From Owenia fusiformis (taxonomy: Eukaryota; Annelida; Polychaeta; Sabellida; Oweniidae): a DNA stretch of 64,000 nucleotides. Below, piece after piece: positions 5,214 to 13,800 of this stretch. The DNA is taken from positions 53,337,885 to 53,401,884 of the forward strand of contig CAIIXF020000001.1 in assembly GCA_903813345.2 (NCBI GenBank), written 5' to 3'. A program made the translations under genes and the position numbers. The notes below the pieces were generated by a model. That model had not been told where the DNA came from and did not search any database. It saw only the letters and a list, made by a program, of their open reading frames with translations. Within the stretch, counting starts at the first letter, position 1. Each line of letters opens with the position of its first letter.

Positions 5214-6006
5214 TCATTTTATGATTGTAGCAAGAAACTCTCAAGCATACATTGGCTTTGATTCTCCTATAATTTCTCTGTACTTGTGAAGAAGTATAAA
5301 AGAACAGTAAAAACAGAGTAAGACAACACACATATTTATTGATAAATACTATGTCAATCAACAACACAAAAAATGAAATATAGAGGTCATGGGGGTTTCA
5401 AGACTCCCACATATTCATCAATTTTTATACTGACATGTGTGCTTGTGTGTGTGGTGGGTAACACATTAAATAACTGCTCTGCAAACATATAAACACAATA
5501 CTTTATGTTAAACATGATGTTAATGAATAAAAGTCAATGGTCCATAAATTATAGTATTTTTAGCATACAGGTTCCAACTTCATTTTTAAAGAGGAGATGG
5601 AAAATCAAATCAAAGTTTTTTTTGCATTTCAGGACCACAGTGAAATAATATTTACCTTATTTTTCAGCTTCATTTCACTGACCTTTTTTATGCAAATTTT
5701 TGTACATATTTCATATAAAGTTATAAAACTGTAAGAAAAGACATAGATATGCCAAACAGCTTCAATAATAAATAATTTTAGTCTCCACATTCACTAATAA
5801 GCGGGATTTCATTGAACAAACTATGGTGTCATGAGATCTGATAAGAACATGTTGATATGTGACAGTTCTTTGTAAGTGGATTATAGCAGACAAACAATGT
5901 AATAGTAAAATATCATCACTTTTAACAATCTTAGATCTTTGTCAACAGACATATATGGCATGAGAATATATGGCCGTTTTTATCCAACAAAATGACATAC
6001 ATACAT

Positions 6007-6506
6007 NNNNNNNNNNNNNNNNNNNNNNNNNNNNNNNNNNNNNNNNNNNNNNNNNNNNNNNNNNNNNNNNNNNNNNNNNNNNNNNNNNNNNNNNNNNNNN
6101 NNNNNNNNNNNNNNNNNNNNNNNNNNNNNNNNNNNNNNNNNNNNNNNNNNNNNNNNNNNNNNNNNNNNNNNNNNNNNNNNNNNNNNNNNNNNNNNNNNNN
6201 NNNNNNNNNNNNNNNNNNNNNNNNNNNNNNNNNNNNNNNNNNNNNNNNNNNNNNNNNNNNNNNNNNNNNNNNNNNNNNNNNNNNNNNNNNNNNNNNNNNN
6301 NNNNNNNNNNNNNNNNNNNNNNNNNNNNNNNNNNNNNNNNNNNNNNNNNNNNNNNNNNNNNNNNNNNNNNNNNNNNNNNNNNNNNNNNNNNNNNNNNNNN
6401 NNNNNNNNNNNNNNNNNNNNNNNNNNNNNNNNNNNNNNNNNNNNNNNNNNNNNNNNNNNNNNNNNNNNNNNNNNNNNNNNNNNNNNNNNNNNNNNNNNNN
6501 NNNNNN
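6007..6506. other. Assembly gap of 500 N
   Basis: Exactly 500 unknown bases, the usual placeholder length for a scaffold gap of unknown size. The left flank is the start of an ACAT microsatellite, a likely cause of the break. Frames running through it have no meaning. Confidence 1.
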
Positions 6507-7230
6507 TCATTCGTGAGTTTCAATGGCAATGAGTCACGAGTAAAAATCACTATGCAAGTAACTGTATCATTTTCACATTACCAGTTATAAAGGTTATACA
6601 TTATGAACATCATCGGTCAACAATGAGAATCTCAAATGTTACCCTTATTCACAAATTCTGAGGTAGAATCAATATACTGTATACTGTACTGTTTTGATTA
6701 CAAAAAAGTTGGTTGCTAATTTATGGATGTTTTGATCAATTTGAAATTCATAAAACTGATGGAGTCTTCATTTTGAAGGATTAGGGTAATGGTGAAATGC
6801 ATGTGTTTTCAAGAAATGACTACTGTACTCATCTCAACTATACCAAATCACTAAACTGTACATTATACAATATTCTTTCCACTCTTGCATCAATATACAT
6901 GTGTATTTCCAAATTGTAAGCATTTCAAAGTTACTTTTCCACATTTTCAAACTAGAGATTTCTTTCAATTATTATATCAAGGAATAAAATAACTGTTTCA
7001 GAATACAAGCACATTTCTTACAACAACAGAATATTTAAAAGAGAATCCATCTTAGACACCATATAGTCTTGATAACTGTAGGTAACACAATATGGGATAA
7101 ACCTCAAGTTACATACTTCTCTCAAAAAGTTTTTCAAGAGGATGTTAACTTCCCCTGAGACACCAAGTGTTAAAGCATGCAAGGATGTACAGTACTGTTC
7201 ATGTTTAGCAATTTCATCATAAATACATGT

Positions 7231-7865: not shown

Positions 7866-10800
7866 TTATTCATCCATCTCAGGCCAGTAATCGACCCTAA
7901 ATCGTTTCAATGAGCCTTCACAAAGTCGCTCCATCCACATAATAAGTCCATCGAGAAGGTGCTGCTCGGCTACAAAGTCCTCATCATCACTGTCACTATC
8001 ATCGTTAAATCCAATAAAATCACCAAACTTATTTCGTCTCTCTTCAGCTGCCAAAGCCCCGTGATAAATACAATAATTCTTCCTATGACCATTTATTGCT
8101 AAAACTGTTCCAATACAGTTTTTAGGATTAATGCCATCTAGACTCCTAGAAAAATCTAAAGTCTCCTCAAGTAGGTGTTTATACCACGATAAATAATTGT
8201 CTATGTGCATAAAAGCAAACTTAAAGGCATCACCCCTGGAAGGTAAAGTAACATCTGTTAAGAAAATACACATTCAAGGAGCCAAGGAACTTTGTGCACT
8301 GAATAAACTAGAGAATAAGGTTTTCATACTTAATTCTAAATACTTCACACTATAATGTTTCACATAATTTTATACAAAATCAATTTCATTAAATATGTAG
8401 GTACACAAAGGTAGGAAAACCTGTTTTGTTTATCAAACCTCACCTTGAGTATGGAAATATGACCTGCACAAACTGAGAGAGGAGCAGGTGTCGAGATTCC
8501 TGATCTACCAATAAGAGAACTGTACGCTGGCCTGGCTCAAGCTTGTTTATTAATAGTTGAAACGTCTCTGGTCGAAGCTCATTCACTGGAACGTTTGGCT
8601 CAGAACTAAAAATAATGTTTAATGAATTGTTGTTTAGAATTTGTATGTCTGTGGCCATGGAAAGTTTGGCTTAGAACTAAAAATAATATTTAATGAATTT
8701 GATTTTGGATGCTGTCTGGCTCATGCACTAGAATGTTTGGTTCAGAACTATTAATGATTATTGAATCAAAATTTAGAGATGTGAGATTATCGGTGGAGTA
8801 TGTGAATCAGAAATGGAAATAATATTTCAACAAAAATTTAAATATTCAAACAAATGATCCAGTGCAACCACAATGCTCACACAGTGAACTTCAAAATTGT
8901 CAGAGCCAATTTTATGTGATGATCTTATCCACAATCTTACCTATTTCCACCACTACGTGTATTCATTTCCTCCCTTGCTCTCTGAGCACGGTGTCTGGCC
9001 CTTGCCTCCATGTATTGCTCTGACTGTGTCCAACTAGGGTTTTCTCCTTCTCCCATCAGACTATGCATGAAGAACCCAACACACACTACCATTGTAATGG
9101 CTATCAACACAGTGACTACCATCATTGAATCATGCCTGAAAATTGAATTACATGTACATAACTATAGTCTTGTATATATTCGAATATTCATTGCAAAAAT
9201 TCAAATGAAGTTTCACAGATTTTTTGAAACATATATAGGAAAGAGCAATTTATATTTCATATGCTTTCATCTCTAAGTATTTATCATAAAGGAATAGGGA
9301 AACAATTCCAAAATATTGCATCATTTTCAAAATTATACATAACAGCATTATCATTCTTCATGTAAAAAATAATTCTTTGGAAGTGAAATTAATATAACTA
9401 GCCACTTACATCGAAAGATATTCACACCAACTATCATACCAATCTAGAAGCCGATTCAAGATTCTTGTCCACAGGCTCTAAAGCAACAAAGGAAAATTAT
9501 CACAATTGTCAGGGAAATAATCTGAAATCTATTAACTGTCAGAAAACTATCCTAGACTTTCTCTCTGTAAATTAAGTTAACATTTAAAATTCCATAAAAG
9601 TTGCGATAGCTAGTATGTTTGTGATCAAGAGATCTTATCACTAAAAACTATTAAATTGCTAGTTCTTATGTTATATTAGGCAAGATGAAAGCTTTGTAAA
9701 ACTGACACATTCATAGATTCAGAATGTTCCGGATCAATGTCAAACTGTTATGAGTGCCAATGACTTTAAAAGACATCGTGAAGAGTATTTAATATTCTCA
9801 AGAATTCTACTAACTGCTGCATGTTCATTAATGAGTTGGGGGAATGTAACAGTGTATGGCAAATTGCCCTTATTGGACAGCAATGTTGCAAGTACGTCAT
9901 CAAGGGCCTTCATGCTCTCATTTTGTTTTCCCTCCTTCAAGCTCCATCCATCAGTTAACAGTTTGAAGGTTACTTTTTTAGATTCCTTCCTCCAGAGAAT
10001 GGCCACCTAAAATTGAATAAAGTCCATTTTATTATCCAGTATGCCTATTCCATTTCAGATTTGCATCAATAATTACACCAAGAAAATGTACAAGGTTAAC
10101 TCTTTCAGTCACTTCCATCCGTGTTCATTTGGCTCAGGGTGGAACACATTGAGGACTGAGTGTGTAACATGATACAAGAGTTCATGTACACGTTAAGCTA
10201 AAAGTGCATGATTAGCTAGTCCCCAAACATATTGTATTTATAGCAAAGTAAGTCTCTAGCTAGGAGACCAGACATGTGGAAGCAAAACATTTAAAGGATA
10301 GAGGTGATGAATGAAAAGATATCATTCCTTATGAACATGTTTAATTCCAATTAACAATATACCAGACATTTCATATATTGTCCTGCCATATTAATTTCAA
10401 TAAAGTAAAACCAGAATATGTGTACCCTCTGTAAAGAAAAAAGGTACATTGTCCTTTATCAAACATCTTTTTTTATTTTTCGTTTATTATCAAACCAAAC
10501 ATTCACATAAGTATAAATGTATACCTTGACCAATACAGTACAAATGGAGAAAATTTCAAATTTTTTGTTCATATGGTAAAACCTTGAAGATGTCATAAAT
10601 ATGAGAAATCCAATACCTAGCAATGTGCTCAATAAAGAGATCTTCTGAGACATTAAAATAAATTCTTAGTTACATTTAGTGGGATACACCATTTTAAAAA
10701 GTTTTAAATCCAATAAAACTTTGTGGAAAATATCAATTATAGAATGAAAGTCTGATTAATTACAACCACTCTGTGATTAAATTTGAGGTAATATTCTTCA

Positions 10801-13800
10801 GATTCAGACGTCTCTTCTCAGTCCAAAGGGGTAGGGCTATCATATATAACAATAAACTTGAAATTGTAAGATAATTATACCTCTTAATCTTTCTCAATGA
10901 GCCATAAATGTGATATACAAGGGTTGATCAATATATTCGCTTTCTTTTCTATAAGTTCATTTCCTATAAATGCAAATCTCCACTCACCTTCAATGCCTCT
11001 CCATAGTTCTCAGGTTCTGCTACAGATAAAGCCTGTATGAATGGTTGCTGACTGTCAGCATGCATGTATGCAAATCTCAACTCACCTTTAATGCCTCTCA
11101 ATAGTTCTCAGGTTCTGCTACAGATAAAGCCTGTATGAATGGTTGCTGACTGTCAGCATGCATGTATGCAAATCTCAACTCACCTTTAATGCCTCTCCAA
11201 AGGTCTCAGGTTCTGCTACAGATAAAGCCTGTATGAATGGTTGCTGACTGTCAGCATGCATGTATGCAAATCTCAACTCACCTTTAATGCCTCTCCATAG
11301 TTCTCAGGTTCTGCTACAGATAAAGCCTGTATGAATGGTTGCTGACTGTCAGCATGCATGTATGCAAATCTCAACTCACCTTTAATGCCTCTCCAAAGGT
11401 CTCAGGTTCTGCTACAGATAAAGCCTGTATGAATGGTTGCTGACTGTCAGCATGCATGTATGCAAATCTCAACTCTCCTTTAATGCCTCTCCATAGTTCT
11501 CAGGTTCTGCTACAGATAAAGCCTGTATGAATGGTTGCTGACTGTCAGCATGCATATATGCAAATCTCAACTCTCCTTTAATGCCTCTCCATAGTTCTCA
11601 GGTTCTGCTACAGATAAAGCCTGTATGAATGGTTGCTGACTGTCAGCATGCATGTATGCAAATCTCCACTCACCTTTAATGCCTCTCCATAGTTCTCAGG
11701 TTCTGCTACAGATAAAGCCTGTATGAATGGTTGCTGACTGTCAGCATGCATGTATGCAAATCTCAACTCACCTTTAATGCCTCTCCATAGTTCTCAGGTT
11801 CTGCTACAGATAAAGCCTGTATGCATGGTTGCTGACTGTCAGCATGCATGTATGCAAATCTTAACTCACCTTTAATGCCTCTCCATAGTTCCCAGGTTCT
11901 GCTACAGATAAAGCCTGTATGAATGGTTGCTGACTGTCAGCATGCATGTATGCAAATCTCCACTCACCTTCAATGCCTCTCCATAGTTCTCTGGTCCTGC
12001 TACAGATAAAGCCTGTATGAATGGTTGCTGACTGTCAGCATGCATGTATGCAAATCTCCACTCACCTTCAATGCCTCTCCATAGTTCTCTGGTTCTGCTA
12101 CAGATAAAGCCTGTATGAATGGTTGCTGACTGTCAGCATGCATGTATGCAAATCTCAACTCACCTTTAATGCCTCTCCATAGTTCTCTGGTTCTGCTACA
12201 GATAAAGCCTGTATGAATGGTTGATGACTGTCAGCATGCATATATGCAAATCTTAATTCATCTTTAATGTCTCTCCATAGTTCTCAGGTTCTGCTACAGA
12301 TAAAGCCTGTATGAATGGTTGCTGACTGTCAGCATGCATGTATGCAAATCTCAACTCACCTTTAATGCCTCTCCATAGTTCTCAGGTTCTGCTACAGATA
12401 ACGCCTGTATGAATGGTTGCTGACTGTCAGCATGCATGTATGCAAATCTCCACTCACCTTCAATGCCTCTCCATAGTTCTCAGGTTCTGCTACAGATAAA
12501 GCCTGTATGAATGGTTGCTGACTGTCAGCATGCATGTATGCAAATCTCAACTCACCTTTAATGCCTCTCCATAGTTCTCAGGTTCTGCTACAGATAAAGC
12601 CTGTATGAATGGTTGATGACTGTCAGCATGCATGTATGCAAATCTCAACTCACCTTCAATGCCTCTCCATAATTCTCTGGTTCTGCTGTAACAGATAAAG
12701 CCTGTATGAATGGTTGCTGACTGTCAGCATGCATGTATGCAAATCTCAACTCACCTTTAATGCCTCTCCATAGTTCTCAGGTTCTGCTACAGATAAAGCC
12801 TGTATGAATGGTTGCTGACTGTCAGCATGCATGTATGCAAATCTCAACTCACCTTTAATGCCTCTCCATAGTTCTCAGGTTCTGCTACAGATAAAGCCTG
12901 TATGAATGGTTGCTGACTGTCAGCATGCATGTATGCAAATCTCAACTCACCTTTAATGCCTCTCCATAGTTCTCAGGTTCAGCTACAGATAAAGCCTGTA
13001 TGAATGGTTGCTGACTGTCAGCATGCATGTATGCAAATCTCAATTGCTGGTGGTTCTCATAGGATTGTGAATACTTGCGGAATGATATCAAGTGTTTGAT
13101 TTGGTTTTCCAGTTGACTCTTCATCGTTAATAAAACAACGCACAGTCTGAAAGTTACACATAGAAAATTATATTTTGGCTCATTGTATGTTACTATTTAT
13201 TATTATTTGAGGAAAAATGAAGATTAATCCAAATATAAATTAAATACATTTCGATTTGCTGCCAATTTGTTTGGAAAAATCAGTCAAATGCTAGAGCATT
13301 GATATAGAGTAAGGTATTAGTGATTTTTCTTTCTATAATAATGTACAGCTTTAAATTGATTCACAGTATATCTGAAAAATACATTTTCTGAATAAAAATA
13401 TTTGAAAAGTACTACTGACACTCGAGTTGACTTGGATCGTCCAACTGGGCATATGTCATCAAATATTGGCTGGGAAGATAATCTTGGAAGTATAAGGTAT
13501 TTATGTGCATCCAACAGTTCATCTATGCTACTTCTTGCTAATGTTCTGGTCTGCAAATAATAAAATGATTTCATCAATTTACCAAAGAATTTAGGTGTTA
13601 CTGTAACTAAAATCATTTGTTACTGAAGCAGAAAACATTTTGATCCTCCATGTTAAGGAATAGGAGAGTAGGGGACTAAGAGATTGTTTATATCCAAAAT
13701 GAACAATTTTTCTTTATTTTTTCCCAAAGGAAATTATTAAATTAAGAAAATATTGAAAATGCAAGGATGATACATTAAAAAAGACATTCTTTGGAATAAT

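Follow-up and report, generated by a model that had tools for sequence, protein, structure and literature searches.

Boundary-spanning repeats in other animals and the host gene

Tandem repeats that copy the end of an exon together with its splice site have been described in lancelets. There, minisatellites known as mirages lie across exon-intron boundaries in the Adh3, globin, TnC, and PGBD5 genes, and the accessible portions of the two reports describe both 5' and 3' boundaries as affected and splicing as undisturbed (PMC3087553, PMC3902484). In the accessible text of one of them, mirages are also proposed as a source of new introns, globins included (PMC3087553). In human segmental duplications, the part of the report available to us describes internal tandem repeats at exon-intron boundaries (PMC2812944). 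Minisatellites of C. elegans and of an earthworm are intronic, and the portions of these reports at hand do not describe copied exon ends (PMC4039745, PMC12783039); the earthworm repeats, according to the same partial source, lie in an intron of metallothionein genes (PMC12783039). Among the titles and abstract beginnings that we consulted, none reported copied exon ends in an annelid.

Here, we describe a repeat of this kind in intron 8 of DNAJC16 in the annelid Owenia fusiformis. The gene lies in the window, which is the whole 64,000-nucleotide stretch of DNA that was analyzed. The initial annotation knew of no described counterpart to this arrangement, but the lancelet mirages, as presented in the accessible parts of their reports, are boundary-spanning tandem repeats and provide one (PMC3087553, PMC3902484).

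The gene name DNAJC16, given earlier, was upheld on a Pfam match to the DnaJ domain (4.3e-29), a PDB match to entry 2cug, and a likeness of the later exons. Specifically, the DnaJ domain of the host gene matched mKIAA0962 (2cug) at 1.1e-20, among 66 matched sequences, and KIAA0962 is presumably DNAJC16. The later exons resemble those of DNAJC16, and the name of those parts, which is probable, comes from this likeness; a Pfam search of the stretch holding exons 7 to 9 and of two other stretches of the gene matched no family. Exon 8 reads ...QQLRFAYMHADSQQPFIQALSVAEPENYGEALK as far as AAG/GTGAGT (slashes mark splice sites), and its final 93 nt form the exonic portion of the first repeat unit. 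To judge from the reading frame, exon 8 would be spliced at 12951, with K/VAILWRK running into exon 9 in phase 0. The initial annotation had also stated that any other donor leads to an immediate stop, and indeed, read-through beyond 12951 gives V-S-stop at once. The coordinates of these features are collected in Table 1. At about 6000 to 6510, the window holds a run of N, either a gap or letters withheld.

Table 1. Arrays, repeat units, and exons, with positions in the window unless a myosin stretch (L) is named
Feature	Position	Strand	Basis or detail
Array of 21 units (98 nt in all but unit 4, which has 101 nt)	10983..13043	-	TRF, unit cutting
Unit 1, authentic exon end	12946..13043	-	Cut units
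Unit 8, donor lost (GT to AT)	12257..12354	-	Cut units
Units 15 and 16, GA in place of the donor GT, change common to both	11473..11668	-	Cut units
11-nt partial copy GAGATTTGCAT, array passing into unique intron	10970..10980	-	Cut units
DNAJC16 exon 8, 196 nt	12951..13146	-	Acceptor TTTCAG/A, open frame ...YGEALK/, end AAG/GTGAGT
Exon 9, first base	10006	-	TTTTAG/GTGGCC, frame V-A-I-L-W
Open frame with what we take to be the last DNAJC16 exon (C-terminal region)	7866..8273	-	Open reading frame
Intron 10 end and exon 11 start array, about 2.5 copies, period 71, 73% matches	8577..8750	-	TRF
Boundary array, L036			Donor side, degenerate
Boundary array, L039			34 bp x 4, donor
Boundary array, L045			61 bp x 4.5, acceptor
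Array of apparently a whole exon with both splice sites, L048	2031-3237 of L048		122 bp x 9.9, stop in some copies
Boundary array, L049			17 bp x 2.2, donor

Anatomy of the exon 8 array and variation among its copies

TRF reported a tandem array at 10970-13043 (period, 98; 21.1 copies; 96% matches) with a score of 3869, which is far above chance. The initial annotation had counted 21 tandem copies of a 98-bp unit, and the same count was obtained when the minus strand was cut into 21 head-to-tail units (10983-13043). The make-up given for the unit was likewise borne out, in that 93 nt are like the end of exon 8 and 5 nt (GTGAG) are like the intron start. Unit 4 owes its length to a 3-nt in-frame insertion, and with that insertion set aside, the mean pairwise identity among units is 96.9% (range, 92.9 to 100%). 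Unit 1 carries a private silent base (GCT, with GCA in the other 20 units). The word that forms the partial copy at the intron side of the array, GAGATTTGCAT, is also present in the exon, near the unit start. In total, the array accounts for 1981 nt of the 2944 nt of intron 8. Additionally, 194 nt taken from the end of the array nearest the exon served as the query for a search of the genome DNA, in which repeat numbers are lower bounds; at least 17 matches were reported, and those reported all lie within the intron 8 array.

The array had been presented as up to 21 competing donors. The number of units stands, and the number of donors does not: GT is kept in 18 of the 21 units, with AT in unit 8 and GA in units 15 and 16. 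The changes of units 15 and 16 are probably one event. Across the units, 19 of the 98 columns are variable, both GT columns included, and changes affect 3 of 42 cells in the GT columns versus 32 of 2016 elsewhere (Fisher P 0.03, toward less conservation). The GT columns vary among units, and the donors are therefore without a sign of upkeep by selection. Furthermore, unit 20 has a stop in the exon frame. Some variants are common to neighboring or nearby units (units 15 and 16; units 17 and 19), a pattern such as local turnover would leave. Silent changes make up 7 of the 16 variable exon-part columns (P 0.025 under equal rates and 0.058 with transitions counted double), and this excess could hint, weakly, that the copies are used for coding or that they stem from the exon at more than one point in time.

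DNAJC16 contains another boundary array, on the acceptor side of exon 11, which is older and shorter than the exon 8 array. Exon-like starts follow an AG at 8747, 8676, and 8605 in this array, the last being authentic. Using the phase left by exon 10 and reading by eye, we found that only the start at 8605 stays open and that the starts at 8747 and 8676 reach a stop. Compared with the authentic copy, the upstream copies of the exon 11 start have 38 and 42 identical places over 55 nt. In both DNAJC16 arrays, the frame is kept by the splice site adjoining the exon body.

Arrays at exon ends elsewhere in the genome

The entire genome (498 Mb) was scanned for triples of the donor word AGGTRAGT spaced 60 to 90 nt apart, with the reversed word as a control. 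Tandem triples were found at 1141 places for the donor word versus 603 for the reversed word, and the single words occurred 33163 versus 47644 times. Per single-word occurrence (1141/33163 versus 603/47644), this is an odds ratio of 2.8, in which the places within one array are not independent and the accompanying P value carries little weight. The excess could mean that donors favor array birth. We set aside a preferred birth of arrays at donors, given that the myosin sample described below has no enrichment at exon edges.

The donor triples examined were the first 100 of the 1141 places, which all lie in the initial 53.4 Mb of contig 1 and group into 11 clusters, the exon 8 array included. 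The first donor closes an open frame in nine of the 11 (L011, L012, L014, L019, L020, L021, L022, L023, and the exon 8 array), and it is plausible that these nine begin at the end of a coding exon; L017 and L018 were not counted among them. An acceptor-like AG lies upstream in eight of the nine, and in L021, none was located and the frame is open throughout the 79 codons shown. When the eight other exon ends were compared with Pfam, two were over the cut-off, matching Rieske_4 (3.4e-8) and Fasciclin (2.9e-8), and the remaining six, which are short peptides, gave no match over the cut-off. The control-word places listed on contig 1 also form 11 clusters, and six of these were examined (L024 to L029). 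The clusters left out were 19350485, which coincides with a donor array, and 24600397, 24601283, 28159847, and 48979389, which have a dispersed or local-repeat look. By our reading, L029 also belongs to the boundary arrays, its exon being a TSP1 exon (Pfam 1.4e-15), and at the edges of the other five control arrays (L024 to L028), judged by eye only, no exon was seen.

Among the first 100 listed places for each word, at least two copies within 120 nt were found in 5 of 79 donor clusters versus 3 of 97 control clusters. Three of the five multicopy donor clusters (L060, L063, and L064) begin with an open frame that the donor closes. Pfam matched L063 to ELO (7.4e-12) and L064 to Muted (5.9e-15), and the tetraspanin match of L060 was weak (0.058) and below the cut-off. 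In L060 and L063, a two-copy repeat also lies upstream, at or near the acceptor side. In L061, two donor words are spaced by 39 nt, TRF reported no array, and an open frame was not seen; L062 has an array starting near the edge of its stretch. Within L060, at 282-1488, a tetraspanin-like exon has a tandem repeat at each of its two ends, one of 120 bp x 2 and the other of 54 bp x 18.

We also used a sample chosen without regard to repeats, namely, 30 stretches, some of them overlapping, around myosin-head matches (of 92 matches). Ten of the 30, picked for an array close to the match or for another suggestive feature, were read in detail, and by this reading, boundary arrays are present in at least 5 of the 30 (Table 1). 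The exon-like peptide of L048 had no Pfam match. Arrays cover 8.8% of the 97182 bases of the myosin stretches, with overlaps counted twice. Edges of exon matches lie within 30 nt of an array in 5 of 94 cases, versus 9.06 expected from random intron positions, an expectation that is somewhat generous in that exon occupies half of the space flanking an edge. Two of the five edges near arrays come from one exon of L039, and the L048 exon, having no match, is outside the edge set. Within these limits, arrays at exon ends look like the residue of a heavy general minisatellite load, occurring at or below the random rate.

Two groups of clustered matches were noted in addition. At G000:C9:37986009-37994334, 12 tandem matches to approximately positions 18 to 84 of the myosin head profile lie within 8.3 kb and have the look of a single myosin gene with many alternative exons clustered together. 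At G000:C6:27033687-27048438, three clustered matches to PF16915 (Eryth_link_C) are over the cut-off within 15 kb; we take PF16915 to be the annelid blood-pigment linker family, confined to annelids, and these matches hint at an annelid genome. The COX1 family gave no match, and PF14830 gave none either, in this genome or in the control genomes.

Explanation of the array and comparison with described repeats

The exon 8 array is, with high probability, a boundary-spanning minisatellite, or mirage, that is tolerated as a functionless by-product while the exon-proximal donor defines the exon. The observations behind this reading are the anatomy of the array, the reading frame, the decay of its copies, the recurrence of such arrays in the genome, and the lack of enrichment at the sampled exon edges. 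Because there is no excess of arrays at exon edges, and mainly for this reason, we favor a tolerated by-product. We infer how the array was born, that the donor at 12951 is chosen, and that the array is neutral. A stretch from within exon 8 to just beyond its 5' splice site would have been duplicated in tandem, either by slippage or via the 11-nt word that the exon has in common with the start of the intron. Unequal exchange would then have enlarged the array to 21 units. The extra copies sit in intron 8 because all of them lie downstream of the authentic donor. The spliceosome most likely picks the donor nearest the exon; this donor makes the exon as short as possible, in keeping with exon definition, and it alone leaves the frame open. 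The remaining copies would be removed along with the intron. If another donor were used, the transcript would meet an immediate stop and presumably be decayed. The array would have no function of its own and would be tolerated, the exon still being defined by the donor closest to it.

The initial annotation had suggested a U1-binding array, a decoy, or a dosage control. In a functional splice-site array of this sort, the extra donors would bind U1 and slow splicing, serve as a decoy, or block early polyadenylation, tuning the dose of DNAJC16. The locus does have 17 extra consensus donors (AAG/GTGAGT) downstream of the authentic one, and use of any of them would include the first junction and its stop, a plausible dose valve. 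However, the suggestion is unsupported by the donor GT, which is no better conserved than the other columns; arrays of this type are found in several unrelated genes and at acceptors too, and the sampled exon edges show no enrichment. With donor columns unconserved and similar arrays in other genes, we rejected a U1 or dosage function as the best reading and regard it as very unlikely. We see slightly less chance that the units hold latent cassette exons. If the cryptic acceptor CATACAG/GC were paired with the donor, each unit would supply an in-frame exon of 45 nt (48 nt for unit 4), allowing a variable number of ALSVAEPENYGEALK blocks. The word CATACAG/GC and a length divisible by three are kept in all 21 units, GT is kept with no stop in 17 of the 21 (unit 1 among them), a branch-site-like word (CTGAC) lies upstream, unit 4 differs by exactly three nucleotides, and silent changes are in some excess. 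These features are set against an intervening piece of 53 nt in which a pyrimidine tract is almost absent, a stop in unit 20, three lost donors, residue-changing substitutions in several units, and the place of the 15-residue block, presumably within a conserved part of the DNAJC16 protein. It is accordingly a slim chance that the 16 usable units beyond the authentic one are 45- or 48-nt cassettes, yielding DNAJC16 with a variable number of 15- or 16-residue blocks; if they were, the boundary minisatellites of this genome would form a lasting supply from which new exons and in-frame repeats could arise.

Tandem clusters of mutually exclusive exons place many near-identical exon pieces in a row, and the exon 8 array is like them in this serial arrangement. 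We rejected such a cluster here: in place of an acceptor and a donor belonging to each copy, the unit has no intron sequence beyond GTGAG, and the acceptor-like word examined in the unit is cryptic and inside the exon part. An assembly artefact, in which the true array is shorter or longer or the array is an error, is about as improbable as cassette exons. Tandem arrays are often mis-sized, and a lancelet mirage was mis-assembled in a draft genome, according to the accessible text of its report (PMC3087553). Against an artefact, 19 columns vary among the units, one unit has a 3-nt insertion, and similar arrays are present at other loci.

The exon 8 array shares several properties with lancelet mirages as the accessible parts of their reports describe them (PMC3087553, PMC3902484): tandem units with an exon end and its splice site, both boundary types, and perhaps local copy turnover. 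Its units are head-to-tail minisatellite units, and the unit spans the exon-intron boundary with the splice signal (GT in 18 of 21 donors). Unit length is similar to those given for mirages in the same partial sources (10 to 72, 60, 108, and 150 to 160 bp), and the 21 copies here compare with 3 or 6 in BflGb6 and 3 in PGBD5, the lancelet cases with a copy number given there. Unlike in lancelets, the unit in DNAJC16 is nearly all exon (93 of 98 nt), and the host is an annelid. The human boundary repeats, in the available part of their report, are likewise minisatellites at exon ends able to duplicate splice sites and alter splicing; they differ in their mean 30-bp units repeated 4 times, their recent paralogues, and their transcript evidence (PMC2812944). 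The potato RdRp and ATP2A1 cases, from what is accessible of their source, resemble the exon 8 array in that a tandem duplication copies splice signals, whereas here no new intron is seen arising and an existing intron has seemingly been enlarged (PMC4974935). Some boundary arrays may nevertheless feed intron gain, as proposed for lancelet globins in the accessible text (PMC3087553).

Each array also provides a natural experiment on splice-site choice, in which a single acceptor is followed by many equal donors (18 here). These donors have an identical core, and position should therefore decide which one the spliceosome takes. The exon 8 array is a long and tidy example of a described kind of repeat, in a lineage for which we found no report in the titles and abstract beginnings consulted. 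It extends to an annelid a kind of repeat that is described in lancelets and, on a smaller scale, in human duplications, and it suggests that such repeats are common there.
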